Shown: positions 8,642-45,100 of the stretch, in pieces
Numbering within the stretch: position 1 is the first letter of the stretch
Layout of the letters: each line of letters starts with the position of its first letter
Notes under the pieces: model-generated
What the model saw: only the letters and a program-made list of their open reading frames with translations
What the model was told of the DNA's origin: nothing
The model's database searches: none
Translations under genes and position numbers: made by a program
Source of the DNA: Gyrodactylus bullatarudis
Lineage: Eukaryota > Platyhelminthes > Monogenea > Gyrodactylidea > Gyrodactylidae
Reading direction: 5' to 3'
Assembly (NCBI GenBank): GCA_012064415.1
Contig: SSNU01000293.1
Location: 8,454 to 72,453, forward strand
Length of the DNA: 64,000 bases

Positions 8642-10959
8642 TGGCGTCATGGAAACAAGACCTCGTGGTTCCGAAGGAGAGAGAAAAGTTGCTGGTTATG
8701 TTATGACAATTTAAACTTTCTACTAAGCTGGCTCGTATAAAGAGGAGTGATTTGGCTGCCCACTTTTTAACCAGTATCAAGTCTGAGGATTATTCTAAGA
8801 TAGAACATTTAATGGCCCCAAAGGATCCAACGGAGGCCACTCTGGAGGAGATTGAAAAAGACACGGATGGCAAGTCAGATGTGGTCAATATGATTGAGCT
8901 GTTCGAGTGGAAAAGAAACGTGGGTGAAGACATAGAAGATTTTGCGGAGAGAGTATCGGACCGCATTAAGAAGGCCAGCTGGCCACAAGAAGTGCGAGAT
9001 AATCTAGCATGTTGCTTTGTCATTAATGGGATAAAAGACATGAAGCTTAAGAATAGAATATTGGACAAAAGAAAGGACTTCGACCTCAGCAAACTTTTAA
9101 AACTGGTCAAGAGCTACGAAGCATCACAAGGCAGAGAGGCTGTCCCGGAAGTCATGGCTATCAGCAACAACTGTTTCAGGTGTTTGGGAAATCATGCTCC
9201 AGACAGCTGCTATTTTAAGGACAAGGAGTGCAGGTACTGCAAGGAGATTGGCCACATCGTCAAGGCATGTCCGAAGAAAGCGGCCAAAGTGAATCATGTA
9301 AATAAGGTTAATAAAAATGTTGAATCCTGCTTGTCGTGTTATTCTGATTCTAACAGCACAGGTTTTATAATGGTTGCAACCAGTGTCAATGGGCAAAAGT
9401 TAGATATGCTTGTGGACACTGGTGCATCCTGTACAATACTACCCTATGATTTCGCCAGAGCATCACAACTTGATCTGAGACCCTCTGCCAGGAAGTTGAT
9501 TACATATGGTGCTGACCGGATCCTGAGCACTGATGAGACCGGAGTAAAAATAGAAACTTGTGGCAAAGGCATTGACCTCAACTGTCTGGTATCAAAGGAA
9601 GACGGGAGAGCTATTCTTGGACTGGATGCCCTGAAGAAGTTAGGCTTTAAGTTGGAGATAAATGGCGTAGTGGTTACTGATGAACATGTCAACGCAATCA
9701 CCTTCTCGAAGGGATCTATCAAAACGGACCTAAAATTCAAGAAAGACTTTCATGAGCATCTAAGAGTTTATGCAGCGAGACCACTTCCGTTTGCGATGAA
9801 GCCGTTAGTGATTAAAGAGCTGGACCGATTAGAGGCCAATGGTATCATCAGCAAGACGAGCAACCCCGTTTGCGCAGCCCCCATGGTGATAGTTCCGAGG
9901 AAGGAAGGGGCCGAGAATCCTTTAAGACTGACAACTGATTATAGTCTCACGCTGAATAAGCTTATTGACCTGAATGCTTATAGTACACCAAGGTTTGAGG
10001 ACATAGCCCATGAGTTCAGAGATGTTCAGTACTACAGTGTTATTGATCTTAAGGAAGCATACCTTCAGGTCGAGCTAGATGAAAGCTGCAAACAGTACAC
10101 AACGATGTCAACCTGTAAGGGATATTATTACTTCAATTATTTGCAGTTTGGTCTGGCCGCTGCCCCGCAAATCTTCCAAGAGATCATGGACACGCTGCTG
10201 GAAGGATTACCCAGAGTAATAGCATATCAGGATGATATTCTAATTGGAGGGCTGGACATGGATGATCATGATCAAAAGTTCGAGGAAGTCAAGTCACGGC
10301 TGGCCATTCACAACTTTGAGATAAACATGAGCAAACTCCAGTATCGTTGTAAGAAAGTCAAATATCTTGGATTTGTGTTGTCTGATGGAAAGGTATTACC
10401 GGATCCTGAGAGATTGGAGAACTTCCTGCGCATTTCGCCACCGTGTAACAAGAAAGAACTCCATAGTGTACTGGCCACACTGAGGTACTACAGCCGGTTT
10501 GTTCCAGATTTCGCCATCAAGGCAGCAGGACTTTACGACAAACAGAAGGATGATAAGTTCATCTGGAATGAGGAAGACTCCGGTACACTCAAGGACCTTA
10601 TAACTTCAATGGCAGCTCGATTTATTGTGGGATATGATCTGGAGAAGCCGGTGTTCTTAGCTACAGACGCATCAGACAAAGGAATCGCGTACCTAGTAGC
10701 TCATGACCGTGAATGCCTGCAGATAGTCGATGCCGGCAGCAGATTGTTGAGGGGATCGGAGCGGAATTATTCAGTCATTGAAAAGGAAGCCCTGGCGGTG
10801 GTAGAAGGTGTCAAATATTTCAACAGGTACCTGGCTGGTAAGAAGTTCTCGGTTCTGACGGATCATCGATCACTCAAATTTTTTTTTGTCCAACTTGGAT
10901 TCTTCTGGTACGAGATCCTACAGGTTGCAAAGATGGGCGTTCATCCTGAGCAATTATGA
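8641..10959 (+). pseudogene. Gypsy-type Gag-Pol, N-terminal part (Gag, protease, RT, RNase H), broken
   Basis: An ATG at 8641 opens the frame, a TGA at 8704-8706 interrupts it, and it is then open to 10959. In order: Gag-like helical region, two zinc knuckles (CFRCLGNHAPDSC, then CRYCKEIGHIVKAC, about 9175-9275), aspartic protease (LVDTGASCTILP, 9410-9445; ILGLDALKKLGF), reverse transcriptase (LTTDYSLTLNKLI, SVIDLKEAYLQVEL, QFGLAAAPQIFQEIMD, and YQDD at the catalytic site near 10226), then RNase H (FLATDASDKG). The reading frame is lost in a T run at about 10879-10887 near the end of RNase H. YQDD is a variant of the commoner gypsy Y(I/L/V)DD. Confidence 0.88.
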
Positions 10960-12208
10960 CTTTGAAGTTACGCATATTAAGGGTGTAACTGTACGTTGGC
11001 CAGACCTTCTATCAAGATTGACGCAATCAGAGGCAGAACCGCTGGCTGAAGAGCTCCCACCCGTGAATGAAGAGGTTTGCCTTGTGAATGACTTTTTAAA
11101 GGATCCCACTTTATTGGATCGAATTGCTGCCTGTGGGGATGAGGAGTACGCCAAACTAAGGAAATATATATCCCAAGGCTGGCCTGTGAGAACCCCTAAG
11201 AAGTTATTGCCATATAGTTCATGCCAATACGAGTTGACTCTCAAGGACGGTGTGGTGTTTCGGCAGAACCAGGCAGTTGTCCCACACTCACTCCGCCAGC
11301 ACGCCTTGACTTTGGTCCATGGACAACAGACACATTTGGGACATGTCAAAATGAAACTCAAGATGAGGCTTTATTTTTGGTGGCCTAAGATCAATCAGGA
11401 CATAAGTGTGTTCATAACCAAGTGTCAGGTATGTCAGCTAAATGCCAGAAGAAGGGGAGCTTCCTACCTTAAGTCATGGTCAGATACCGAAGAGCCGTTC
11501 GATAGAGTGTATGTAGATGTGGCGACAATTGATGGATAGCATTATCTTGTGTATGTGGATGCCCATTCAAACTGGGTAGATGTGCAAAAGTTGAAGGGAC
11601 TGACTCCGACGGCGGCAATCCACTGCCTCAAGACCATATTCAAATATATGGGCCCTCCAGGTTTGTTAGTATCAGACAATGGTACCAACTTCACTTCAAG
11701 AGAATTCGCAGATTTCCTGAAAGATAGAAGGGTGTCGCATCGACTGATCCCACCCGGGCACCATGAATCTAATGGGCTGGCAAAAGTCTTCGTGGGAGAT
11801 CTGAAGGCATTTATGGCCAAGAACAATGGCGATGCTAGGCTTTTGGATGTATACGTATCTGAGCATAATTCCTCCCCAAATTCGAGAGGAGCCATTCCCA
11901 ACACGCTCATCTTCCTGACACTTCCCAGGTCAAAGTCAGAGTTTGATTTAACGGCGCGAAAAGGGTCAGCTTGTCCGGTAGACGCATTCGTGGCCAAGGA
12001 AAATAAAGGCAAAACTGAGGGCCAAGCTAATGAGTGCGCAGGCTCAAATGTCATAGCAGATGAGTTAGGACGGCTGGTACATGTGTCTGATGTCTTCCCG
12101 AGGAATCAATCAGAAGTCAGTGAGGACCCGACTGTGGTCCTGATGTCCAACGATGATAGTGAAGAGCCAGATGTAACCTCGATCCCACTCCGGCATCAAG
12201 GCCCGTGA
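10886..12208 (+). pseudogene. Gypsy-type integrase region, broken
   Basis: This continues Pol after the T-run frameshift. It shows the end of RNase H (SYRLQRWAFILSNYDFEV), then the integrase zinc-binding H-H-C-C region (HLGHVKMKLKMRLYFWWPK, TKCQVCQ) and the catalytic core with the acidic residues in DVATIDG, VSDNGTNFTS and HHESNGLA. A TAG at 11537-11539 splits the core directly after its first acidic motif. The later region is shortened and shows no chromodomain. Confidence 0.82.
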
Positions 12209-19085: not shown

Positions 19086-19788
19086 GTGAGTAAATTTGAT
19101 GTTGATAATTGATCTTAGTTATTCGTCATCGTTTTAATTCTAAAATCCTGGTCTCCTTCTTAAAAATTCAACAACTTGTATACTGAAGTTCTTACTTAAT
19201 AAGTAGAGCGTATGGTCAGACCTCAATATGCAAAGGAACTACAATAAATGTCAAAAAGTACAGAATGCTTCTGGAAATACCAAATTAGGAAGAATCGAAT
19301 ATGGAGAATAATATAGAAATTAAACGGTGAAGATCAAAACAAAATTTGTTTTCTAGACTCTACTAATAGCCATTATATTGATTTAAACAGCTTCTTCGTC
19401 ACCCAAGTGAGAGAATATTTATTAAAAAGCAAAGCAAATCATTCGATAATAGATTTTCGAACATGTTCAGATGAGAATATTAATTAATTCAAATAAAAAT
19501 AAGCTATTTAAAATGAAATAATATAGTGACAATTTCATATCCATTTTCGCTTGTCATAAGTAATAAAGTTTGAATTTAAACAGGTCATTGTAAGTAATTG
19601 CAATATACTTGAAACAAACAAGCAGTTGAATTGATAAATTAATTGTTTCCAGATACGTGTAATTATTCAATGCAATGCGGGTTCTTAATTTATGACAATA
19701 TCCAAATATCTGTGATGATTTTGGGATTAACAGGCATGAAGTATGAATTAATCTCTTCGAAAATATAGATTTTATTTTAAACAACATC

Positions 19789-20865
19789 TTATTTCTTCGC
19801 TTCTTTCATTTTGAGTGATTTAGCTTTCTTGTTTCTGAAATAAGAAAAAACGAATACTAATTGGTTGTTATTTAAAAATATGAAAGCTTTTCTCTCAACT
19901 AAATGTAAATGCATTCACCTCTTTTTATCATTCCGATAGAGTTAAATTCGCTGATTTTGGGTTCTAATCTTCAAATAAATCTTTATTAATCAATTTCATG
20001 GTTATTTCAGTTATTTATGAAATTTCGAATGAAGAAAAACTTAGTTAGCTATAACTTCTTATGACTGAAATAAGGGATATTTTCTTGATAAAATTAGATT
20101 GGTATTTTTACAAGTATTCTAATCGTGTATCGTATTTTTTTGATCGCGCTGAGAGAAAAATAAAATAAAATATTCGTTAGCTCATCTTACCGTCTTATTC
20201 TCCTTTTCACAGATCTATTTGAAATTCAAACTCAATATTATTTATGAATATATTTGGGGAGAGAGTCAAGAAATACAGTATTGAGTTGATCAATAGAACA
20301 GCTGAGAGTTAAATAAAAGAAATTGTTAAAGGTGGTTTAATACTTAATATGGTTAATCCCAAAAAACACTCCAAGAAAAAATTTATGGAAAGCAGCTAGA
20401 ACAGAAGACGAGAGTTCCTTTTACTTAGAAATGGGCCAGATCTCGAAAATCAACAAAAATGTTGTAGAATATCTTAGTGAAATTTCTGTTGCAAATTGGG
20501 CCAATTTTGCACCCCCTAAATACCGCTTTGGGATTATAGCTTCAAATTTTCCTGAATCATTGAATGCATTTGTAGAAAATCAAAAGCTTAAATATAGTGT
20601 AATTGAATTTAGTTATCTATAAACACTTCTGAAATACAATTCTCGAAACTTACCGTCTCTTAGATCGATTTGTTCTAAAATAAAGTAAAACTCATAAATA
20701 TTTTTCGGTTGATCTATCCGGAAGAAGCTTAGTAGTTGCATTATATTTATGATATAAAATAATAATCATCTTCTTAGCCTTAGGTTTATTTATTATATAT
20801 TAAAGAGGTCAAGAGAGAACTTTTTGGTTTCCAAAAAATAATCTTACATCTTTGGGCTTCTTTTT
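19789..20865 (-). CDS. Basic C-terminal tail exons of the micro-exon gene
   Basis: Four exons (20848-20865, 20654-20674, 20191-20214, 19789-19834) join in phase 2, each split codon completing as Ile or Arg. They encode Lys/Arg-rich peptides: KRSPK, TNRSKR, SVKRRIR, then NKKAKSLKMKEAKK and TAA at 19789-19791. For 20654-20674 and 20191-20214 phase 2 is the only frame open in both, and all three exons before the last are multiples of three. This makes the tail the best-supported micro-exon run. About one residue in two is basic, suggesting binding to nucleic acid or an acidic surface, or proprotein processing. Confidence 0.55.
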
Positions 20866-23800
20866 CTTATTAAAATAATCCATGACACCAGTTTTTTTAT
20901 AGACGGGTTGAAATTAACATACTTGCTTTTTCTGAGAGAATGTAAAAGCTTGATTATTAGTGATAATGTATCACTTAAAAATATGTAATATGCAACGTAC
21001 ACATCAAGAATTTATCAAGATGAAAATTGAGCTATGAAATTTTGAATCATCGCTCATTCTTGAGAAATTTTATAAGTTTAGAAATCTTTAAATGAAATAG
21101 AAGATACAACTTGGGAAAATGAAGAATGATTATTAACCTCAATCATTCGAAAATAGAAACTGATTTCGAAATAATTTTTAGGCACTCTTTATTTAATAGA
21201 AGCAAAAATCTAAAAGTTCAATTTACCTGTTTTTGTTACAGCCCTTTCCTGATATGAGATCAATTTCCTGAATTTCAGAGTAAATCAATGATCTAAAGTT
21301 GTTTTTATGAAAAAAATTCAAAACAAACTTTGTTTATGCAGTTTCTATATATTTTATAGAAGAACACGGTACGTTTCTTAATTCATATTTATTTAAATTC
21401 ATTACAGCAATATATAATTATATATGTTGTGGCTAAAGTGTGATGAATGATGAAAGTGTAATTAATTACACTTTCAACGTTGAAAATGTAACGAAAATAT
21501 TTTTCCTCTCTGCCTCTTTTCGGTATATGCCTGTTAGCATATACTGTCTATGCTTATGCAATATACAAGTGACTTACCTAAAGTGTAACGAAAACATTTA
21601 ACCCCTCTGTCCCTTTTTGAGTATGGAATCGTATTTTTGTCTTTTTTTAAAATTAAGTTAGTAAATTCAAAACTTCAAAATGTAATTAATTTTTGATTTA
21701 CTTATTTGTACAGCTATCGCTTTTCGTAATCGTACATAACCGCATGTAATCCAAGGGTCGGTCCCTGATTTCTCTTACTTTGGTTGAAACTGAGAACAAA
21801 AAATCCAAATTTTTAAATCTCCTGACGCAGATTGAATTTAAAATAGTTCATCTAAATTGAAGTCTGGCTGTGCCTATTTTACTCATTGCTATTTGGACCA
21901 ACAAAATTATTGTAGAAATACAATGAAAATGTAATTTTGCTCATATCATTGAATGTCAAAAAGAATCTAGAATTTCCAAGTGTCTTTTGTGTGTCCTTTG
22001 TCAGGTTTACAGCATTTCCACTGTTACGTGTGTTACCAACCAAGGTATAATTATAATTCTCATGTACATTAAGTTATTCCTATACAAATATCATTATTAG
22101 TTTGATATATTTTTTAATTATGTAATTATTAGGAAGTATGAGTGTTCTCTCGTTCCAATTCAAGATTTCGTGTAGAAAGATTTGATTGAAGTTTGACCCA
22201 AAGTTCTTTTTTGAGTTACATTTTCCACCTCCAACATTGGTATGCTAATGATAACACTTTGTTTTGGTTTTAATACTGATTTGGGTAGCACTAGTGGTTG
22301 TACAAACTTTTTTTGTAAACATAAGTTGGGTTGTTCACTTGAGATCATTAAGGCTTCAACTGTTATGAGAGATATGATATTGTATAGGATTTCGAAATTT
22401 TCAGGGGAAACTCTTTCTTCTTGATATGTTGCCTTACAGCAGTTGTGCCTGTATGTAGGTGTTCTTCCACTCTATCCTTGAGTCTTCTTGTGGTATGCCC
22501 AATGTATTCGGCTCAACAAAAGCATTTAAACTTGTAAATAAAATATGATTCAGACAGTGGGTTTTGCTTATTCTTGGTGGTATTCGGAAACAGTCTTTTT
22601 AGAGACGAAATTTAGCTCTGTTTCAGGGAAAGTCGAACTGCACCACTGCTTGATCTTTGACTTCGTTAAATTCACCAACGGGTCACCTTTATTGGGACGG
22701 AATATGGTGACTTTGTTCTCTTGTTCTTTTTTATCTTCTCTTAGCTCTTGTTTTTCTGTCAACACATTGTCTATGAAGTACTCTGGGTAGTCATTTTGCA
22801 TGAATATTTGTTTCAAGGTTTCTTTTTCCTCACTGAAGCATTCATTGGATAGTATTTTTTCCAATCTATTGTTAAGGGATTTTACCAAGATTTTTGTAGA
22901 TATTGGTGAGAATGAATTATAGTTGAGAAGTTTACATGTGAAAGTAGATTTTTTATGTACTCTTCTCAATAACGATCCATCTTCTTGCCTACAAAGCAAG
23001 ATATCCAGAAACGGGATTTGCTCATTTGCCTCTGTTTCCATTGTGTAGCTTAAATATCGATGAGATTCAATGAACTTATTTAGTATCTCTATCTTCTTAT
23101 TCACAATCATAAAGATATCATCTACATATCTTCTGTAGAATTCGGATTGTTCGATTGGCTGTGCTAAAGGACCAGATTCCAATTTCCCCATGAATATTTC
23201 TGCCAGAATTGGACCGAAGGGAGAGCCCATTGCCACACCATCCATTTGTACATAAATCCGATTGTCAAACGAAAAATTAAAATCTTTACAACAAAGCAAT
23301 AGCTTCAACAACATGGGAGGAATTGGAAAGTTCTCTATCTCTTTGGAAGTTTTGCAGATAAACTCCACCGTTTCTAATAACGGAACTTTTGTTAATGGAG
23401 ATGATACATCCAACGATAACATTAGTTCATCTTTTGCATTGATATCTTTATGGATGTCAAAATCAACAACTTCCACTTTTTTGAGATATTTCTTATGATC
23501 ATCAGTTATATACATATTTTTAGCTTTATCTGATTTTTGCTATGATCTATAAAACAAATTCTATCTCACATTCGGTGAGTTTTGACTTAAATGATATTTT
23601 AAGTATTTTTACCTTGATTCGAATCAAGGATTTAATTTCTAGCTTGTTTTTTCAAAGAACTTGGAAAATTAGGTTTTTATTAAGTAGTAAAAATACTCCC
23701 ATTACTCGTTTTAAACATACCTGCCTTTGACCATTGCTGTTCTGCATAAAAATAATAATGAATAATTGGATTTTGAATTTTAATATTGATGAAAAACACT

Positions 23801-26800
23801 TTAATTTCAATAAAAATGAGATTTTTCAAGTAATACATTTTGATAGCCATCTCAGGGTTATCAGACTCGGAGGAAATTAGAGTTAGTTGGGAATTTGTTC
23901 AAAATGATAAAATAATTACTCTACGAGGTTTATGCAGAATTAGTTTAATAGAATTTAGTCATACGACCAGTATATTTAGTACATTATCATCCATACTTGC
24001 ATGTATTTATTTTAGATTTAGTACGAAAAATACAGAGAGTCTAAAAGATTTAACAACAAAGAATGAGCAAGTTCTCAACTTTAATCCTTGATTCGATATT
24101 TGAGTTTGAGTACACTTAATTGCTATCTAAAAGGTTTAATCAATTAAACTCGTATAACCTCTTCATTCGGATGGGAAACATAAATTTTTTGGCATAGTTC
24201 AGTGTTAGTTGGCGTTATAAATATGAAATTTAAGGAAGTAGAAAAAAGCCTGACAAGCTGACTCTTCATAAGAAAATATTATGTCAACATAAGATGTTAA
24301 AATTTTCACTTACTTTGGAGCTGAGACTTGATTTGAAGCAGTTTCATTTGGATAATACGGATCAGGCGTAGGATATTGCTGATAAGATGAAATTTGATCA
24401 TCATAATTACTTGGTTGATTCTGATCTAGTGAGAATTGACCGGAATTGGTCATAGGATCAGGACTAAGGGCAGATAGATCATTGTTCAATGAGTTATCGA
24501 TTGGATCCCCACCCAGATTAGGATTACCACCTAGACTTGAATCACCACCCAGGTTTGGATTACCACCTAGGTTAGGATCACCACCTAGGTTAGGATCAAC
24601 ACCTAGGTTTGGATTACCACCTAGGTTAGGATCACCACCTAGGTTAGGATCAACACCTAGGTTTGGATTACCACCTAGTTTAGAATTACCACCTAGTTTA
24701 GAATTACCACCTAGGTTAGGATCACCACCTAGGTTAGGATCAACACCTAGGTTAGGATTACCACCTAGTTTAGAATTACCACCTAGTTTAGAATTACCAC
24801 CTAGTTTAGAATTACCACCTAGTTTAGGGTTACCGCCTAGTTTAGGGTTACCACCTAGGTTAGGATCACCACCTAGCTTAGAATTACCACCTAGTTTGGG
24901 TTCACCTCCCAGATTTGGACCATCACCCAGATTAGGATCACCACCCAGATTCGTATCATCATTTTTAATTTCACTTGAGGTTTCTTTATTGACAACCCGA
25001 GCAATTCCTGTCTTGGGTCCTGGTTCTTCATCTTGCTTCTCAATTTCTTCAAACCTTAAAATTAATAAAATCATTGTTAAGATTACAAAATTTTTTTCTA
25101 AACTCACGGAAATGATTTTCTTAACAACAAATTCAGAGAACATGAAATGAGATATCACCAGACAAAACTACTAGGGCGTTTAGAAAGATTATGTCCTCGT
25201 TTTTAATTCATCATACCTACAAGTAGCATAATCTCTTTTGTAATTCTTGGTACAATCAACCTGTAAAAGATTCTATCAAAGATGAACTTAGATTTTTCGT
25301 TTACATCTTGAAAAGTCCCGTCAAACCAATAAATATTTAATCAATGGAACTGGTAATAAAATGGGCAAGGATTCAAAGTCGGAGCTCTAGTGATAATAAT
25401 AATTCACTATCAAATCTTATAATCTTAATAATAAATTATCAGCAATAATTGTTAGCTATACTCAAAATGTATTATCTATTTATCGGATGGTTTTTTCACA
25501 AATTACAATTTTCCATTTTGTCTGAAATAAAAATTTCATGAATAAAATTTTTATAATCGATAAGTTTAAGCTGAAATTTCTCATTATTTCTATCTAATTA
25601 AAAATTGATTTTATAGATTAAGAAAATGAACCTACAAAGTAAACAATTCTCTTGAAAAATATCTCGATGAGCATGAAAAATAAACAAACTTTTTTTGCTT
25701 CCTAAAAAGAATATTTCGATCACGGGGGCTATTGGATATATTCAACAAACTCCACGAATGTAAAGCTAAATTTACAGGATCATTTAATTTATTCTATTTA
25801 ACTTACCATTTGGCCTCATGATTGCTATAGATTTATTTGATGGCTTGATAAGTTATTGAGAAATATCGTATCCCTAGACCTCATAGTCGAAATCATTTAA
25901 CGTCTGAAGCCATTCGTTATCCCCACAATAAGGCTGAATTTTTGATATCTTGATAAGTTTAAAAACTGATTCTCATGGTTCTATTCGTTTTAAGATCGAA
26001 TTTTTTCTCTTAGCATATAGTTGAGAGAAGTTTCTGCCCTTGTAAGAAAAAACCTCTAACGACCGATGACGCCAGTAAAAAAATAAATAAAACCATGAAA
26101 ATCAGCGTGAAAAAGTAAATATTTGTTGCACCGTATTATTTATATACCACTTTATACGGTGATTAACTAATGACTGATGATGGGAAATATTTCAAATTAT
26201 TTTTGGTACGTTTTTTATATGAATCGTATTTATCTAATGATCCAAATAAAAGCATTATAGGGATATTGATCCCGAAAGTCTAGCCAAGCAGCAAGAAGTG
26301 AATAGCATAAAGTATAAATGGCGTACTGCATTATTTTTTTCTATAGTTATTTTTGAATCTTTCTCACTTCACTTCAAATCTAATGTGAATAAGTCTCATA
26401 AGCTTTTATTTCTCCTGTATTATTTCTATACAGAAAAAATGCATAACGCAAAATATATTCCTACTTATTTAGAAAATAAGATAAGAGCTATGATACGAAA
26501 AGCCTGCTAATTTATAACCTAGCCTGTAGTAATTTCTGGTTGAAAGAATAAAGCTCAATATAGATCTATCTCTTCAAATTTAGTGTAAAGGTTCTAACTG
26601 ACAATGCTTTTGTCTTATCTCTGAAATTCGAGCGATACATTATTTTATATTTATATTGATGTCATTCACAAACATACAGTTGTCTTAAATAAGTTGTTTA
26701 ATGTGTCTCATAGTAAACTTACAACTGATTTGATGTCCGCCTAATTGGTAACTCATTCTGATGCGTTCTTACAAGAGATACTCACTATAAAGTTGAATTT

Positions 26801-29800
26801 TAGTTATAATTGATTTATAAACTAATGAAAAGAAAGCAAACAGATGTTCCATAGGGCAAACTTATGTATTGTGTATTTGAAAATTAAATTTAGCTCTGGA
26901 TTCCTTGTTTTAACTTTCGTTTTTGAGTTAGTCTTTACAATCGCATGTAAGCCCGTGCTTTCCTATGAAGGATCATTTAATAGATGCTTACTCGGCAAAT
27001 ACAAAACTGATAAAAATAGTTCTTTCTGCACACATTGTATACTTACGATTTCGTAAGGCAAGATCCTCTATTCAGTTATTCTCTAAAATATGTTCATCTT
27101 ACTTGTGAATACCTTTACTACCCAATCTGAAAAAAATATATACAATCACTATACAGGTAAAAGTCCTGTAGAGTGAGAAGAGATAAATTAAGATGAGTAA
27201 GATCCTGGTATATATAGGGCTAATTTTGGTTGAATAATATTGGTAGATTTCATGGACCAATGAGAATCTAGAAATTCTCGTGGGGAAATATCAATGACAT
27301 TAGAAGAAGGTTAAATGATCTCATCAATCAACATTATATTAACATACAATTGAAAATTGTATTTAAAATTCAGAGATTGTTTTGTTTGATTCATAAGGAT
27401 TTACTGAAGCCAGAGGAGAAAACTCTATTAGTTTACAAATTCCAATGTGATTGTGGAGCCTCATATATAGGTAGAACGATTAGGAAAATTTTTTTCGTTT
27501 TATACAAAAACCCTAATGACGATAGCATAGATGTATGGATGAAAGAAAAATTTCTTATTAACCTATATAAACCTAATCTATGTGTTCAAAAGAATTATTC
27601 CTATAATCTTCATTTAACTTGGCCAATGTGAGCTTTTTCACTTTTCTCTCCACTGTTACTATTTATTGGAGAGTTTTGGTGTTTTTTCAGCTTGCATTTT
27701 ATTCTTATTTTCTTTGACTTTAAAATTTCTTTCATGAGTTGTAAAATATTATCTTGAATGAACTTTTAACTAATATCATTTTTGAAGAATTACTACTGAT
27801 GATGCTTCAAGAAATGTACATTTGGTTCTAATATATCTTCTTTTAATTTTCTAAAATATTAAGTTATTTTTCACCCTGATTCAATCTAAGATATTAACAC
27901 TACATAAGAAATAGGAGTTAGTCATTTTCAATTTATACACACAAACTGACCTCATCTTCCCCTAAAAGATCATGTAATTCATATCGTTGAATAAGAAAAT
28001 TTCTTCATTCGACAGAATCTTGAATTAAAAAGTATACCATTATAAAGCTGATAAAAAACTTATCAATTTTGCAATTTCTATTCACCTGTGATTTTTTTCC
28101 GGTGTTCTGGAGCATTTCGAAAGTGTTGGTTTTTGAAATTAAAATTCTTAATCTGACAAACAAAGCATGATTCAGAATAGGATTATCAGCTTTCTAATGA
28201 TATAATTCTTAATTCAAGATTCTGTCAAATAAAGAAGTTTTCTTATTTATTATTTTTCAATGAATATGAATTACATGAACTTTAAGTGAAAATTGAGATC
28301 AGTTCGTTTGACCTAACACCTTAGATTTCTCTAGAACTAAATACTTACTTATCAATGGAAAGTCTACAGTACGTTGAAAATAATAATTATATTTATTTGA
28401 ATACCTTTCTTTATCCGTTTCCCTGAGAAATAATTAATTTTGAAAACAACTTACTTCGTCTTATTTTCTGAGGATCTTAATACGAATAAACTTTTTTGAT
28501 AATCATTGGATTTACAGAATTCTGTTCAAAGGATTATTCATAATGTGTGAGATAACATACAAATTATAAAATTGTCTTAGTTTTATATTATTAATATAGA
28601 ATAATGATATCAATTACAATATATCTTCGTAACTATTCCATAAGAAATTATAAAATACTTTTACAATCCTGCTCTAAATTAACAGAATTATACTTAAACT
28701 ATAAGTCCTTACAGTTTATCTTTTTTACTTAAATATTATATATATATTATAATGATTGAGGGTTTTGATTTTCAAGTTTATTTATACGAGAAGCTTTGAG
28801 CTTACAGGTTGACATTTTTTCTGATTGATTATTTATTTTAACTTCAGGATTCAATTATGAAAATGATTATAATGAGTTTTACCTTTTTTGGAGTTGTTTA
28901 ACTCACATTCCGTTTTTGCTATTTTCATTTAATGATCCAAGTATGAAGGAAAATCTAACATCGATATTCTTTTACATCAATCGAAAATTTAGCACTCACG
29001 TCAATCTGCATTTAATTCTAAATATTTTTAAAATCTATACTACTCAAATTAATTTTTATAATCTTCAATTGCTTATTAAAGAGTAGATTTCTTTTATGAA
29101 ATTTATCAGTTAAAGTATTATTATTTTTTGATTAAATAATTCACGTAAATTCTCAAATAAGTCCGAAAATCCACTCAAAATCATATTAAAATAGAAGTAA
29201 AAGATATATTAACACCAAATGTACATTTCTTAAAGGATCATCAGTGATATCACTTTAAAAATGATAAGAGTTAAATAATTGAATGAAAATAATAATTTAA
29301 TTTTTTGTATAAAACTGAAAAATTTGAAATTGAAGCTGCGTGGTTTTCCTGCTTAATATGTCTATAATTTTTTCATCAAACATTATGATCCTGGGAATTC
29401 TAAACTCTATTTATATTCTGAAATCAATTCGAAGTACTTTTAGATCTTACTTTTTGTTTTCGAGTCTTAAAAAACGGATTTGAGATTTTGAGATTGCTAT
29501 GCTAGTTTCGTCAAATAAAATATTTTAGTTGGCTTCTTCAGAGCTAAACCTGAATTGAGATTTAAGTTGTCTTACCAATAGATTTCACTTATACCTTGTA
29601 CGAGCTAGAGGAATGATGTTGACCAAGATTATCAATGTATCTTGGTAGATAGAATGTGATTTCTTTAATAGCCAGCAGGAGCTATTTAATTTTGACCCTG
29701 ATGCGGGCATAACAGTCTTTTTTCGATTCAGGGTTGAGATTTGTATTCCTGATAAGTGAAGAACTATGAAAGGTAAATGATTCAAGCAAAACTCACAAGA

Positions 29801-31559
29801 AAAGACGACTGCTATTCATGAGAAAAAAATTAATAATTTTCAAATTCAAATTTGAATTCAAAAAAATTTTTAATCATTTTCTCAAGACAAGATTATGAGC
29901 TTTGTTCCCTACCCTTCCTCTCAGTGGAATTCTTTAGATTTTTAATTAATCAAATCGGCAGGTTTCTTATTTTTCATTATTTTATATACGAATTTCAAAC
30001 CAATGTAAGGTATATTAAGAACCGGTCTAAAGCTAAATTCTCTGGGAAATTCATATTTCTGCTGATACAAAAAATCTTTATCAGCAAGTATTTGATTTTA
30101 TTGGCTGACTATACTTTTCAGAGGATTCGGGAACTTCTACAGATTGAACGACAAAATATATATCGTTGAACAGCTTACCCATCTTTAATCTTTTTATTAC
30201 TGATTAAGAAAAAACAAAATATTATAATAAAATTAAATGAAAATGATAAATCTTTTATATATTATATTTTTTCATATAATTGAAGAAAATCCCCGATTAA
30301 TATGAGCTTATACGTAGTATTCATGATTTACTACTTACTTTGTTTTAATTCCACTGAGGACCGAAACTATAATCATACAATCGAAACATACAAAAGTTTG
30401 AGATCCCTTCGATATTATTTACCCTAAACAATCTTACTTAATGAGGACTCTAGAACATAATTCCATCATTTTAAAAAATCAAGCTTGTTAAGATCGAGTA
30501 AATGATGTGATTGTGTTAGTCATTCATGAATTTCAAAAATACTTTGCATGATACTTACAAAATTGTATCGAATCTTATGATGAAATTATTTTTTCATAGT
30601 TAGAGTTAAATCATACTTTTGCATGAGGCAGTTTGTTTCTTTAGTAGATCTAAAACATTAGAAAATAGATTATTTTGCTTACGGATTCTGTTTCCTATAG
30701 TATTAAAAAAATTTATTATAATTTCAAATTTTTATCATTTAAAAAATGTTCACATTGAAATTAAAATTTCTAATTTCTCACAAAAAACTTGTGCTGAGCA
30801 AATGAAAATATTATTTTAAACTCATTAGAGAATATTTGAGATGGATTTTGCCAAGTAATTATTTTAGATTTAATCATTAGCCTATTGATATTTTAATATA
30901 TTGAAAATATTGATAAGAATAATAGAATTTAAATAGAATGATTGGTCATAAAGCTTACTTTCCACGCTCCTGGTCTTCGTAATATTTTCTACAAGGATTA
31001 AAAACCAATAGTTTTCGCATACACTAAATAATCTGGACATCTAAAATAATTAAATGTAATATTTAAAATTTGCATATAGGCTTTTAAATACCTTTCTAAG
31101 TACTTTCGAATATTCCTTCTCTAATTCCAGAAAGAATTATCTGTTTTATAAAGCTTTATTCGAAAGTCTGTTCATTAAGTAAAGATATAATGCGAAACTT
31201 TTAATTTCTTCTTACTCTGGTTTAGAGAACCTGATAAAAATATTTTTCATTTGCTACATTAGTAAAATATTTCATTTAAACATATCATTTATTGAAAAAA
31301 TAACTTACAAAATAATTGCATTCCCCTCGGGTTCCATATTAATACTAAATATGTTATTAACTCATTGTATTTTATCTCACGATGGTTCCATGGCACTGGG
31401 ATAGTTAAATTTTGCATGGTTATTTTGGAAAAATACTGTTTGACCAGTAAAATCTCGTTGTTTACTTAAAAACCAAATGGAGTTAAACATTTGATCGTAA
31501 AGCATCGTAGAATCAACAAATTTTAGATGTTTTTGGCTTACTTTGCCTTAACTTCTGCT
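19789..31559 (-). CDS. Putative micro-exon gene: about 30 tiny phase-2 exons plus one 741-nt repeat exon
   Basis: Family not recognised. Candidate exons 5' to 3' (lengths): 31542-31559(18), 31381-31395(15), 31309-31344(36), 31216-31230(15), 31092-31115(24), 30959-30988(30), 30782-30793(12), 30683-30694(12), 30559-30573(15), 30339-30353(15), 30179-30199(21), 29797-29808(12), 29451-29465(15), 29000-29017(18), 28907-28918(12), 28806-28820(15), 28713-28727(15), 28455-28475(21), 28349-28363(15), 28086-28106(21), 27103-27126(24), 27047-27067(21), 26992-27006(15), 26773-26784(12), 26723-26740(18), 25217-25234(18) or to 25260(44), 25108-25119(12), 24314-25054(741), 23721-23741(21), 21779-21789(11), 21227-21248(22), 20848-20865(18), 20654-20674(21), 20191-20214(24), 19789-19834(46, stop). 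All listed are open in phase 2 except the 11/22 pair, whose lengths compensate. GT donors are mostly GTAAGT-like; acceptors are weaker. Product: hydrophilic, with scattered Cys and a basic tail. The 5' signal exon was not found, and individual micro-exons may be wrong. Confidence 0.5.
22150..23560 (-). pseudogene. Penelope-like retroelement: reverse transcriptase plus GIY-YIG end
   Basis: A 315-residue open frame (22568-23515) is a Penelope-type reverse transcriptase: SLDVSSPLTKVPLLETVEFI, DGVAMGSPFGPILAEIFMGK, FYRRYVDDIFMIV (catalytic YVDD), EANEQIPFLDILLCR. Beyond it, at about 22420-22530, the same strand reads YKFKCFC, a TGA, then AEYIGHTTRRLKDRVEEHL, the GIY-YIG nuclease start, followed by decayed sequence to about 22150. 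It sits inside an intron of the micro-exon gene in the same orientation. No flanking duplication was found. Confidence 0.8.
24314..25054 (-). CDS. Large exon of the micro-exon gene with Gly-rich hexapeptide repeats
   Basis: Acceptor TTTTAAG before 25054, donor AAA|GTAAGT at 24314, phase 2 at both ends. The exon opens with an acidic stretch (FEEIEKQDEEPGPKTG), then has about 25 tandem units of the form (N/K)LGG(N/D)(P/S) at about 24508-24957, then a Gln/Tyr/Pro-rich end (QQYPTPDPYYP). If the donor were ignored the frame would stop at TAA 24310-24312 just beyond it, so a protein ending in SAPK is the alternative. The repeat should be disordered or loop-rich. The plus-strand frame over the same repeat is a shadow. 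Confidence 0.65.
24508..24957 (-). repeat. 18-bp coding minisatellite, about 25 units
   Basis: Units such as ACCACCTAGGTTAGGATC and ACCACCTAGTTTAGAATT (plus strand) repeat head to tail in frame. A 54-bp higher-order unit (three hexapeptides, of the NLGVDP, NLGGDP, NLGGNP type) recurs about three times at 24575-24750. Edge units are more diverged than central ones, as expected for recent unequal exchange. Confidence 0.9.
25217..25260 (-). CDS. Two-cysteine exon of the micro-exon gene
   Basis: Between CTTTTACAG (acceptor) and GTATGA (donor) lie 44 nt reading VDCTKNYKRDYATC plus a split Arg codon. This needs phase 0 in and phase 2 out. An internal AG would give an 18-nt, purely phase-2 version (DYATC). 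The acceptor is the best of the locus. The next exon (25108-25119) follows in phase 2. Confidence 0.5.
27330..27860 (+). pseudogene. Penelope-like 3' fragment, second lineage
   Basis: An open frame to 27631 includes LVYKFQCDCGASYIGRTIRK (GIY-YIG start) and then LYKNPNDDSIDVWMKEKFLI and a terminal TWPM. The catalytic core between them is deleted. The 3' non-coding tail (GAGTTTTGGTGTTTTTTCAG onward) matches 35975-36190. The copy at about 34720-34960 has the same LYKNP-DDS peptide. It lies antisense in a micro-exon-gene intron. Confidence 0.65.
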
Positions 31560-39149: not shown

Positions 39150-42100
39150 ATGCAAGACATTCAATGTTTCCTGACCAATTTGAGGACACAGAAAGCTGAT
39201 AAATCCCATAAAAAAATATATATATATGAAACTGACAGTTTTCTGATTAACGAAAACAATAAACTTTACTATTTATCCATAAAGTTGGATAAATCTCTTC
39301 TATTTGAAATGAATGATGATTCTGAATCAAAGATTACTTACGACTATGTTCATGAATTCAATTGCATATATTTGGGATGCTCCAAAAAAATCTATCTTTT
39401 TGATGTTGAAGCGAAAAAGATTCATTTCAACGCAGACTTCGATGAAAATATCCTAAAAGTTGTATTCTCTCATGATGGATCTGTTGGTTGTGTTCTTTTA
39501 GAGAATAAACAAATCCTACTTGTCTCACAAGAGTTGGATGTTTTGAATGAGATTAACCTCGACAATGTTACCGAATGTCAAATAACCTCTATCAATGTTG
39601 GTTGGGGAAAGAAAGAAACACAATTTCATGGCTCCCTCGGCAAGGCCGCTGCTTTTGCAGATTCTGAGAAAAATACTCCCTCTTCAGAAACTAATGATGA
39701 TGGCATCATTCATATTGCCTGGAGAGATGATAATAAATTCGTTACTGTATCCTACATCAATGCATCGGGTTATCGTATTCTTAAAACATTCACTGACCAG
39801 CTGGAATTATACTCAATTAATGAGGAAACAGAAGGAGTACAATCGAACATTTTTTATTTGTAAGTTTGGAGTTATCTGAGTTATCCATCTGCCTCGTGAT
39901 TATGGGTTCATTAATTCTAGGCCAAAATATTTCCTGCTTGGAGCAACTAGACGTACTAAATACAATAAATTGGATTTGATTTTCTTCGAAGTTAACGGCC
40001 AACGACACAAGATTTTCAACTTGCTAAACAAAAAGAATTTCCAAGACCCAGAATTTTTCGATGTTAAAAAGATTGAATCTAATTCAAATGGTTCCCTTAC
40101 TGCTATGCTTTTTGAGCCTACTGCAAAGAATCCAGATAAGTCCAAATCTTTTGGTGAGTTTTTAAATAGAAATAGGAAATCTACTTTGAAGTAGATATTT
40201 ATTATTGATTTTTTTACAGTTGGAATTTATTCCTTCATTCAATTCCAATGGACATGTAAGCGTATGCTCCAAATGACAAACTCTGACATGATTCAGGACT
40301 CTATCAATTTTGGCTGGTGTAAAAATGAACTCGGCTTAGAGAACCTAGTCATTTACAATGATGGCCAACGTCTTGAGATCAACCTGCATCCAAAAAGTTT
40401 CAACAAGATCAATCTCTCTAATTCTAACGGCGATATTTTCTTCTGCCTTGACAATACAGATTTGAAAATCAGTGATTTTACTTCGGCCATCATACCTCCA
40501 CCCCTTTGCTCAGCAATTATTTGTGTAAAAACTCAAGATTCATTCAAAGTTCCCATTGCAGCATATTGTGCATACAGCGAAGATTCAAGAAATTTAACCC
40601 TAACTCTTTTAACATGGAACGGGGACCTGTTGGAGGTTGTACTTGGTGAAGAATCCTCATATGATTCAATTAAAGTCAATGAAAACACTGTTGAATTCAC
40701 TCGCAACGTTGGCAATATGAAGAAGCTCAAGAAACTATGCCAAGTCAATTTGATATCTGGTTGGCGGGAAAAAGTGTCTAATTCAACTCTAACTACCAAC
40801 ATGACGAGGATATCTCAAAATTGCTTGTTATTTGTCACTGAGAATGCTACAAAGATCCTCATTGCTCACTTGAAATCTAATTCGATTGACAAAGTTGAGG
40901 AAATATTCAGTTTGAAAGATGCTAATAGTTGTATTTACAAGACCAAAGTCATTTCGAATAACATCGACAATGGCATTCTAGTACAAACCAATCTCAAGGA
41001 AATGTATCATATAAAAAAATCTGACAGTGCCTATGCAAACACTTTAATCGGTGTCCTACCTGAAATATGTGAAGAATTCGATCTTATTTCCATGTATCCC
41101 AATACAAATTCGATGCGTCTCAATGAATTCTTTTTGATTGGCCATTCAAAGAGGCTGCAGAAACTCTACCTTCTCAAGACAGACGTACCCCTTGGTCAGG
41201 AGAATATTGGAAAGTTCCTCCTGAACAATATAACCTCTTATGCAATCCATGAATCATTCCTTGCTCTGACTACAGTCGACAAAATGTTGTTCCTCTCAAA
41301 AGGTAACCTTGAAAATATCAGCTCAACTGAGAGAATCAAGTCTAGTGCTATTGAAAACTGTAAGTTTCAAACATCTTTTTGAAATATTTACTCCTAAAAT
41401 CACGAATGAAATTTTTTTACAATCTTTAAAGAGTGTTTTATTGATTAGAAATAAGGGATAGTTACAAAGAGTTGAAGATTCTAGATGAAATTTTCAAAAA
41501 GTAGAAGATTATTCGGAAATTTTACAATGTATACGCTTACTTCTTGACATTGATGTGATAAATGTTCACCGCTTTTGTAAAATTCAAAGATGAACAGACA
41601 AATAGGCTCAACAGATCTCTCTTGATATTAACTTGAGTTAGATTGAGTCGGCTTATAATTCCTTCCAACTTATTCGGAAAATTCAAGTTAATGGCTTCAC
41701 TCATGAAAGAGGTCATTTGAAATTAGTGCCATTTGGATATCCACCTTGTTTTTGCATACCAACATATAACTACTGTCTTGAGGCTCATTTGCTAGATTTG
41801 ACATTTGAGACAAAAGATTGCTTAAAGTATATTAAATGCAACGTGTTCCCAGATCTCTTCTATTGATTGCAACGTGTACTTTAGTTACTTCTATTATTTG
41901 TAAGATTAAAATACAATACAATCCTAGACAATTTTTTGTTAATGCATTGAAAAGAGGAGAAAATTCTCTTTCGAATGATATATAATGAGCAAAACCTAAT
42001 TAAAGTATATTAATTTTAACCCCTTCGAACCCATAAGAGAACCGACAGACTTGGATCGAAAATTTTTTCGGGGATTTGATTTCTAAAAGCTATCTCAACA

Positions 42101-45100
42101 ACTTTTACTTCAATATTTTTTTCATACGAGATCTCTTTCTGCTTGATCTGGATCAGGTCGTATACGACCTTATGGATTTTAAAAGACTAGAGAATTATAC
42201 AATCTACTTATAAGCGACGCACACATAAAAAAGCAAAGTTTATTTAGAATGAAAATCTCTGAAACAATTTCTAATAGAATTAATACATAAATAATTATTA
42301 CAATTTTGAAAAAATAATGTTTTCATATTGCACAAAGAGCATGTTCTTCTTTCTCTGTCTGATTTGACTCTTGAAGGAATATGCTGCTCTTTCAAGTCAA
42401 AATTTCCTCCAGATAAGTTGAGAATGTCCAAAATTCTTTTATCTTCTCTTCGTTTAGCAGGTATGGGACTTTCCCTAAGATTTATAATTCTTTTTCTTCC
42501 AACTGCAGTTTAATTTCCGTCATTTATAATTTGTTTTGCAAGAATCAATTGGAAGCTCATCAGATCAATTGCTTTTTCCTCTTCTTCAATATTTCTCTTT
42601 ATATCCAGGCATTTATTATCGATGAATTCAGGATCCACTTGAAGACAGCTGAATACCAATTGGTTGATCTGTGATTCAGTCTGTACATTGCATGAAACGA
42701 GTCGAAAAGATCAACTGCTCCCATGGACTTGTTGTAGTTGCTCACTATGTAAGGCATTTGAATAGATTCAACAATTTTTGCTTTGGAATTCCATCTCTTA
42801 ATAACAGTGACTGGTTCAGCTGCTCAAAGGTAGATATGTTAAAGTTACCGCTCTGTTATCGAACCATCTGAGAACGTAAATTCTTTTTGAAGGACTGTAA
42901 AGCAGGTCATATATTTCTCTACCTTTCTTTAAGAATTTTTTCAGTCATAAGTTCCTTTTCTAGCTCTTTCAAACGGTTTGATCTCACTGTACCTGTACTA
43001 TGAATTCCACGAGCAAGAAGAGCATCTTGAAGCTCCAGACTATTAAAAAAGTTATCGAAGCATACAATATGGTTCTTGTTTTTAGGAAGAGCATTTCCTG
43101 GGAGAAAAAAAAGATAAAAGTAATCCAAAAAACTTCGGCAAGGTTCTGGTTTCTTCATATGTTCGAAAACTAGATTGAATTTAGGATGCCTTTTAATATC
43201 TCTCATATCAATATTCCCGACTCTATGAAGTTCAAAGATGCCGATTGATTCATCTGGATCTTCTTCCATGTCTTCAATAGTTGAAATCTTGTTATCTATA
43301 TCCATGGGATCTTCTAGTTCCTCATGTGAAAGATCGGCTTGGGGTAGCATAACAAGGGAATAAACAGTCCCATTACGAGTAGTACGAACATCGAACTCAC
43401 TATTTAACTTTGATTATTTTCGTATAGACCTATCAAATCACATCAAGAGTTTGTATTTGCATTCATTATTAGTAAATGAAAGACTTGAACAAATATCGAA
43501 TTTGATAAAGCTTGGTATGTATGAAATTATGCTATGATTAACATGGGAAAATTTAGAAAATACCTCAGTAAACAAAATCCATTATTTTTCAAAAAAAATT
43601 ATGTTAACCCCAAATTAAATCACGCCATTAGATAGAGGAATAATTACTCTATCTATTAGTAAAAAATAATAATTATGGTTTAGAAATTATAAAATAATTA
43701 GTTAGGCGGTCGTATACGACCTCTGGGTTCGAAGGGGTTAAGAAGGTTTAAAGAATTGGGGATGAAGTGAAAAACTGTGGATCACAAAAAAGGATTAAAA
43801 ATTGTTTCTATGATTTTTCTGAAAATATTTATTTGTCGAATTGGAAAATCATAAATTAGAATAAAACAAAATTGAAAAAAAATTTTTCTATCCTGGACCA
43901 GTTGATCGAAAATGGAAGCCCTTTATAAAAGTACCCTATCAGTTTTATACCAAGTACAGTTTGTTATACGATAAGACTCATATCATAAACCTTGAAAAAC
44001 ATATAAACTTTTGTTTTCTGTTGTGTAATGTTAAAAATTAACTGCTAATTGCTAGTTTAATTGCATACGACTTAATTATATGAAATTGCCTTATATACCT
44101 TCGAATACACCATATCATTCCACTATTTTTGAGTAGCTACGTCTGATTTGTCATTCCACTATTCTTGTTACTCTCTCTTGGTTATTGACTGTAATTAGAA
44201 AGAATATTCAATTTCATGATGTACATTGTTGATTAGTTATCCAAGAATTTCTCGAGTCAAACCTTGAACGTGAACGAGTCAATAGGAAACCAGAAATATC
44301 ATCTGTCTATCCAATCGAATCGGACTCCCTAATTATTACCTCATGTGATGACTATGTTATTCTTCAAATGCCACGCGGAAATCTTGAAAAAATCTGTCCA
44401 AAACCATTGCTCCTCAACAAAATTATTAAAATCATTTTGGACAAGTATGTATTTCCTTTCCTTATTTATCAGGTTACATTACCAAACACTCATGAAAATT
44501 ATTTCAAGTAAAAAATACTCATTACTAGAACCTTAAAAACGCATATGTTGCATATTTTAATCACAAGGTATACTTTTTCTCATTTGACGAAAACTGTAAT
44601 TAGATTTCTTGTTAGTAAAAGGGTTTAAAAGTTATAACTGCACATATCTGTCAAATTTAAATGCATGTACTAATGTATAACACATAAAAATTATCAGTCA
44701 ATAAAATTTAACCTACAAACATGATAGGCCAATCAGAATCAAGTTAAAAAGTCAATGAATAAAATTTATACACTAAACTCTCTAAAAAATGTATGACTGG
44801 AAAACCCGACGCACAAAATAATATCAATGGTTTACTCATGAGTATTATAATTAAAATATAATAAATTTATTTGATATTTTAGAGCCGAAGATGGATTAAT
44901 TTCTGGTTAAATTTGATGAAATTTTGAATTTACACTAAACGTTTATAGCATTTTCTCCTCAACCTTTTTCCAGAACCTTAGCTCAGGTAATAATAAGAAT
45001 AATTTTTTCTTCTCATAGAAGCATAAAAATAATATCATCAGATGCAGAATAAAAAACTATTACACCTCCGTAAATCTCAGCCAGAAATATAATTCCGGCT

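Follow-up and report, generated by a model that had tools for sequence, protein, structure and literature searches.

Does a crowded series of very short, frame-preserving segments in the DNA of a fish parasite form a single spliced gene, and if so, of which kind? The question is raised by the minus strand of a 64,000-nt stretch of Gyrodactylus bullatarudis (contig SSNU01000293.1, 8,454–72,453; hereafter the window, in which all positions are counted), read here from 39400 to 19000. The original prediction described about 30 tiny phase-2 exons linked to a 741-nt exon and a terminal exon, and likened them to the micro-exon genes (MEGs) of schistosomes and the bicycle genes of aphids. Our analysis indicates that the locus is a real gene of known but rare architecture, in a flatworm class without such a locus found described, and we place the probability that it is a MEG of a gyrodactylid, extending over approximately 11.7 kb by its predicted exons, at about 0.85. 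COX1 of the same genome, read with TGA as Trp, shows 83% identity over 100% to that of Gyrodactylus albolacustris, and its four best matches (79–83% identity; best 120 hits listed) all belong to Gyrodactylidae, so that the host is, by COX1 and by these lineages, a platyhelminth, as a flatworm MEG requires. The GC content is 0.28–0.35 in 28 of the 32 2-kb bins of the window; published gyrodactylid assemblies have 31–39% (PMC12677651).

Candidate micro-exons were defined as AG-N9..36-GT[AG]AG, with the nearest [ACT]AG acceptor 9–36 nt before each donor. Twenty 10-kb stretches of this genome (77.3 Mb, 471 contigs) served as controls on both strands, giving 80 bins of 5 kb; N is present in two of the 20 stretches, and all were kept. 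Between 31700 and 26701, the minus strand contains 27 candidates, 21 of which are multiples of three, as against 125 of 359 in the control (binomial p = 6.3e-6 for the excess). Cut out as a 5-kb bin, the array yields 26 candidates, one differing through the cutting, and again 21 multiples of three, while the control bins hold on average 4.5 candidates (maximum 10) and 1.55 multiples of three (maximum 5). The plus strand at the same place has six candidates, four of them multiples of three. GTRAG donor words number 27 in the array versus a control mean of 6.3 and a maximum of 14, and 1000 dinucleotide shuffles reached at most 12 candidates and seven multiples of three. The minus-strand bin at 4–8 kb was high in the first count (35), with many acceptors sharing few donors; counted as one candidate per donor, the 4–9 kb bin retains eight, of which three are multiples of three. 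The array is more than chance, and the minus-strand series of short, mostly multiple-of-three segments is thereby confirmed.

The best phase-2 chain through the array joins 20 exons with a score of 56.9, under a model with generic, hand-set and untrained splice-site weights that took multiples of three only and is biased to that extent. The highest chain in the 80 control bins, over three phases, scores 13.1 with five exons, the control limit for phase-2 micro-exons being four, and the opposite strand of the array gives 1.9 with one exon. In the next 5 kb (26700–21701, minus), the phase-2 chain scores 11.1 with four exons, within the control range; the strong evidence is confined to 31.4–26.7 kb, and the small exons on the 3′ side rest on the frame and the terminal exon. 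Single AG...GT pairs are common in AT-rich DNA, as the 359 candidates of the 200-kb control illustrate, and short DNA patterns were judged too unspecific as a genome-wide MEG finder. No control bin or shuffle approaches the array, however, and a chance pattern is an extremely improbable source of the whole. The control bins, shuffles and chain controls rule it out for the ensemble, although single exons may still be chance products; the evidence is thus carried by the ensemble, as had been cautioned. A repeated DNA unit was rejected as the source of the pattern, since the non-self matches among those listed lie near 29.36–29.12 and 27.87–27.29 kb of the query and not on the whole array, the other matches listed being self-matches on the same contig (best 40 of 2555 candidates scored). 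No Rfam match to a structured RNA reached the gathering score in the window.

The predicted exons, in order from the 5′ end, are as follows.

31381..31505, minus: possible first coding exon; start codon at 31505 or 31490, frame open as far as the donor gtgaga; weak
31395-31381, minus: alternative to the first exon, a micro-exon of 15 nt only
31309..31344, minus: micro-exon, 36 nt, phase 2
31216..31230, minus: micro-exon, 15 nt, phase 2
31023..31040, minus: micro-exon, 18 nt, phase 2; weaker donor gtatgc
30959..30988, minus: micro-exon, 30 nt, phase 2; acceptor not the nearest
30782..30793, minus: micro-exon, 12 nt, phase 2
30683..30694, minus: micro-exon, 12 nt, phase 2
30617..30649, minus: micro-exon, 33 nt, phase 2; weaker donor gtatga
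30559..30573, minus: micro-exon, 15 nt, phase 2
30438..30449, minus: micro-exon, 12 nt, phase 2
30392..30406, minus: micro-exon, 15 nt, phase 2; weaker donor gtatgt
30339..30353, minus: micro-exon, 15 nt, phase 2
30179..30199, minus: micro-exon, 21 nt, phase 2; acceptor not the nearest
29797..29811, minus: micro-exon, 15 or 12 nt; tandem acceptor tagcag
29451..29465, minus: micro-exon, 15 nt, phase 2
28907..28918, minus: micro-exon, 12 nt, phase 2
28806..28820, minus: micro-exon, 15 nt, phase 2
28713..28727, minus: micro-exon, 15 nt, phase 2
28455..28475, minus: micro-exon, 21 nt, phase 2; acceptor not the nearest
28349..28363, minus: micro-exon, 15 nt, phase 2
27103..27126, minus: micro-exon, 24 nt, phase 2; top site score in the chain, acceptor not the nearest
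27047..27067, minus: micro-exon, 21 nt, phase 2
26992..27006, minus: micro-exon, 15 nt, phase 2
26773..26784, minus: micro-exon, 12 nt, phase 2
26723..26740, minus: micro-exon, 18 nt, phase 2
25108..26379, minus: weak or mutually exclusive candidates (26379-26368, 25824-25807, 25521-25507, 25234-25217, 25119-25108)
24314..25054, minus: 741-nt exon, phase 2 at both ends, repeat-coding; AG / GTAAGT borders
23721..23741, minus: micro-exon, 21 nt, phase 2; donor gtatgt
20923..20931, minus: micro-exon, 9 nt, phase 2; donor gtatgt
20848..20865, minus: doubtful micro-exon, 18 nt; weak acceptor
20654..20674, minus: micro-exon, 21 nt, phase 2, basic
20191..20214, minus: micro-exon, 24 nt, phase 2, basic
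19789..19834, minus: terminal exon, Lys-rich, stop TAA; AATAAA begins at 19776

A length of 12 or 15 nt is found in 16 of the 21 multiple-of-three candidates. Upstream of the array acceptors, positions -5 to -14 contain a mean of 4.0 T compared with 3.1 in the control candidates (p = 0.005), and C or T occupies position -3 in 20 of 27 array candidates versus 198 of 359 in the control. The exons have a GC content of 0.327 against 0.266 in the remainder of the array's 5 kb. With the nearest acceptor, six of the 27 candidates have a length not divisible by three; five of these (31559, 30988, 30199, 28475 and 27126) become multiple-of-three exons open in phase 2 through an acceptor farther upstream, a choice that leans towards the favoured reading, and no such alternative acceptor is listed for the sixth (31698). 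Weak sites or conflicts were noted for 31559-31542, 29587-29576, 29017/29005-29000, 28673-28665, 28632-28618, 28575-28561 and 26962-26939 and, further 3′, for 20865-20848 and all five candidates in the 25108..26379 line above. At 29811-29797, the tandem acceptor would permit isoforms that differ by one codon.

The reading frame was examined for the 21 multiple-of-three candidates, in which a stop closes phase 0 in ten, phase 1 in one and phase 2 in one. Stops in split codons, over 20 junctions, number three in phase 0, three in phase 1 and one in phase 2, and the best chains score 29.1 (11 exons), 50.7 (16 exons) and 56.9 (20 exons) in the same order. Phase 2 was assigned because the 741-nt exon at 25054-24314, bordered by AG and GTAAGT, is open in this phase, which bears out this part of the original prediction. 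The same phase is kept by 23741-23721, 20931-20923, 20674-20654, 20214-20191 and the terminal exon 19834-19789, whose predicted stop is present as TAA, with AATAAA at 19776. In the set of 25 micro-exons, nine of the 24 introns measure 31–43 nt and none 44–77 nt; nine or more introns of 31–43 nt occurred in 0 of 20,000 random spacings. This set includes three GTATG-donor exons that were added after the idea of the earlier prediction was known, and the intron result is supporting only. The introns of Opisthorchis felineus likewise show peaks at 37 and 90 bp besides long ones, the splice sites of its micro-introns are precise while a polypyrimidine tract is often absent, and short-intron peaks were earlier reported for Cestoda and Monogenea, as cited there (PMC6530080). 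By eye, the neighbouring ELP1 gene has two introns of approximately 60–70 nt, with donors GTAAGT and GTGAGT.

The micro-exon part of one spliced model encodes 197 residues, with 15% Lys, 12% Leu and a GRAVY value of -0.57. The 741-nt exon comprises 246 whole codons (20% Gly, 15% Asn, 11% Pro) and encodes 25 hexapeptide units starting with LG, most commonly LGGNSK, LGGDPN and LGGNPN. Across these units the third codon position takes two to four states, the first one to two and the second one to three; because third positions vary most, the frame of the repeat is suggested to be coding. No Pfam match was obtained for the large frame of this exon. Searching the genome for a second copy of it returned three candidates, all from its own locus. 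The same spliced gene could instead encode a secreted protein with a structural or adhesive role, made in a gland or in the attachment apparatus; the Gly/Asn/Pro repeat would then be the working part and the micro-exons would tune a linker. Gly-rich proteins do occur in tick cement. Nothing in the literature searched, however, links such repeats to monogenean adhesion, and the protein search with the 741-nt frame described below returned no homologue; we therefore consider this function unlikely.

Several points weigh against the interpretation as a MEG. Each single exon is a prediction from DNA alone, and about a dozen are weak, so that of the claim of about 30 tiny exons the ensemble stands, with 20 in the best chain, while those dozen remain doubtful. 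Taken by themselves, the micro-exons exclude phase 0 and hardly separate phase 1 from phase 2. The absence of stops at split-codon junctions, as originally claimed, does not hold throughout, since 29587-29576 and 25824-25807 each form a TGA with the exon listed after them. When the set is restricted to GTRAG donors, which leaves 22 exons, only four of 21 introns measure 31–43 nt. No homologue was found in the protein database at E <= 10 for model residues 1–235 (1358 candidates) or at E <= 0.001 for the frame 25167-24310 (7993 scored), in searches that need shared five-residue words and limit the length, so that fast-changing relatives may escape. No second copy of the array was detected among the matches listed (best 40 of 2555 candidates scored). 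Finally, no exon that combines an ATG, a strongly hydrophobic run and a good donor in phase 2 was found in the region 39.1–31.4 kb, and its most hydrophobic first-exon candidates have poor donors.

The 5′ end bears directly on where the product would act, and the signal peptide is stated to be present in all MEG products (PMC4350168). The original prediction held the first, signal-peptide exon to be missing. No convincing signal peptide was found, as it said, and yet a possible first exon exists, on weak evidence: an open run of 55 codons precedes the donor at 31380 and includes ATGs at 31505 and 31490, with a short hydrophobic run only. An equally long open run precedes 29 of 504 control donors (donors whose run reached the end of the stretch were excluded). 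Alternatively, spliced-leader trans-splicing, which occurs in flatworms (PMC7653826), may provide the start at the acceptor at 31396. The designations "secreted" and "effector-like" were not upheld, given that no convincing signal peptide was found and that the basic tail would suit a nuclear or nucleic-acid-binding protein as well. In that case the same spliced gene would encode an intracellular protein whose basic tail (45 Lys/Arg-rich residues, net charge +22) acts, for example, on nucleic acids or elsewhere in the nucleus, with the repeat as a flexible spacer. The hydrophobic run of the possible first exon, being short, agrees with such a location, which we regard as a serious possibility though not the leading one. 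The 5′ end is not fixed, however, and a signal peptide may sit in an unrecognised exon; moreover, basic C-termini also occur in the schistosome "blue clade" MEGs (PMC10526429).

Under the interpretation as a MEG, a strand-specific array of exons, mostly of 12–36 nt and separated by very short introns (31–43 nt) as well as longer ones, would lead into the symmetric 741-nt repeat exon and then into a basic tail, a stop and a polyadenylation signal. Because the internal exons begin and end in phase 2, each of them could be skipped or kept with the frame intact, a mechanism described for the symmetric exons of MEGs (PMC7653826; PMC4350168). Different versions of a single polar, probably disordered protein could then arise from the locus, and since the 741-nt exon is equally symmetric, forms with and without the repeat would be possible. 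If so, one gene could make many slightly different proteins. That the product belongs to a gland or the surface and is varied at the host interface is a guess, because no signal peptide was found; we hold it by analogy with schistosome MEGs and at somewhat less than even odds. The secreted-effector reading is likewise a reasonable analogy, no more.

Several introns contain multi-copy repeats. One lies at 27872-27292, with related inverted pieces at approximately 29364-29117, and its copies are mostly 92–98% identical; two others lie in the 3′ introns at 21975-21403 and 20568-20383. The intron after the 741-nt exon contains, at 23539-22140 on the minus strand, what looks like a fragment of a Penelope-like element: it includes a reverse-transcriptase frame (23539-22568, Pfam RVT_1) and matches other places in the genome. 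An apparent GIY-YIG motif was seen by eye 3′ of this frame. These repeats, together with the doubtful exons and the unfixed 5′ end, would suit a gene in decay or a non-coding RNA that undergoes splicing. Against such an origin, 21 of the 27 candidates are multiples of three, all but one of those lack a stop in phase 2, no stop interrupts the 741-nt frame and the third positions of its repeat are the most variable, which leaves it very unlikely. Outside the locus, a long inverted repeat lies upstream of the array at 33880-32980 (by eye). The ELP1 gene flanks the locus from 39108 onward on the plus strand, with Pfam Beta-prop_ELP1_2nd in 40195-41382, and offers a possible synteny anchor; a transposase fragment (DDE_Tnp_1_7) at 42919-43413, minus, is on the strand opposite to it. 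On the other side lies an immunoglobulin-domain gene (4802-5770, minus), whose Ig matches fall just below the curated cut-offs, and retroelement reading frames occupy 8707-12208 on the plus strand, with an RVT_1 match at 9946-10377 and gag-, protease- and integrase-like parts recognised by eye.

MEGs are numerous and poorly understood, and their identification across flatworm lineages has been called a high priority in a survey whose counts span one fluke and two tapeworms (PMC7653826). No monogenean MEG locus is described in the literature searched, which includes neither DeMarco et al. 2010 nor Hahn et al. 2014 on the genome of G. salaris. MEG organisation is listed among the proposed gains of parasitic flatworms with citation of Tsai et al. 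2013 and of that paper by Hahn et al. (PMC4398949). The MEGs of PMC4413821 are drawn from papers on S. mansoni and tapeworms. An earlier record of MEGs in G. salaris may thus exist, and because PMC4398949 cites that genome paper for MEG organisation, we leave the priority of a monogenean report unclaimed. On balance, we favour the view that MEG organisation is shared by parasitic flatworms including Monogenea and that here an apparently single-copy locus, with about 25–30 phase-2 micro-exons around one phase-2 repeat exon, gives a protein diversified by splicing, in a parasite that lives externally on fish and not in blood or gut. Working out a MEG in a monogenean would help in choosing between an origin in the ancestor of parasitic flatworms, the proposal reported in PMC4398949, and repeated origin. 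An experimental Gyrodactylus lineage on fish exists (PMC12677651), so that splicing could be studied directly. Tapeworm MEGs were at first missed by standard annotation (PMC7653826), and we infer that it often misses such genes in published gyrodactylid genomes as well.

Outside flatworms, Tb-MEG1 of the myxozoan Tetracapsuloides bryosalmonae is a named micro-exon gene of a fish parasite, with its product in and on the parasite (PMC7923790; PMC8481699). Its bearer is a cnidarian, and the comparison covers name, parasitism of fish and product location. MEGs appear restricted to platyhelminths according to PMC4350168, a statement that Tb-MEG1, named a MEG by others, contradicts. The aphid bicycle and megacycle genes also have many micro-exons and nearly all internal exons in phase 2, and differ in belonging to an insect and in the CYC motifs of their proteins (PMC9168663). 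The present internal exons are in phase 2 as well, and this part of the proposed likeness stands. The CYC motif has the spacing C-x-Y-x-C. Neither this pattern nor a looser C..Y..C occurs in the model protein, and the two protein searches returned no homologue; in a non-insect, the resemblance is of form only.

The comparison with flatworm MEGs goes further, and the architecture originally likened to that of schistosome MEGs is upheld in a host that is itself a flatworm, with short symmetric exons and a repeat exon. MEGs have been defined by exons shorter than 70 nt and divisible by three, at least seven exons of which at least half are micro-exons, and a run of four (PMC7653826); by prediction, the present locus fits this definition, with 25 micro-exons at 31395-26723, 20 in the best chain, and at least four micro-exons downstream, versus the 741-nt and terminal exons. 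S. mansoni has 109 counted MEGs, E. multilocularis 35 and H. microstoma 52, and their orthogroups cannot yet be determined with confidence (PMC7653826). Schistosome and tapeworm MEGs come in families (PMC10526429; PMC7653826). The two protein searches, limited by length and shared words, found no similarity to a described MEG protein, and no convincing signal peptide was found in 39.1–31.4 kb, the 5′ end not being fixed. The locus differs from the MEGs compared in that a repeat exon of 741 nt, likewise in phase 2, lies among its micro-exons, and in belonging to Monogenea. S. mansoni MEGs have 10–20 very short exons, fewer than predicted here, and 14 of the 24 introns in the 25-exon set fall below the 100 bp minimum given for MEGs (PMC10526429). 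With the MEGs of Schistosoma, Echinococcus and Hymenolepis, the locus shares a flatworm host and runs of very short multiple-of-three exons in which 15 nt is the commonest size, as it is in S. mansoni; with the "blue clade" of schistosomes, it shares a basic C-terminus (PMC10526429).

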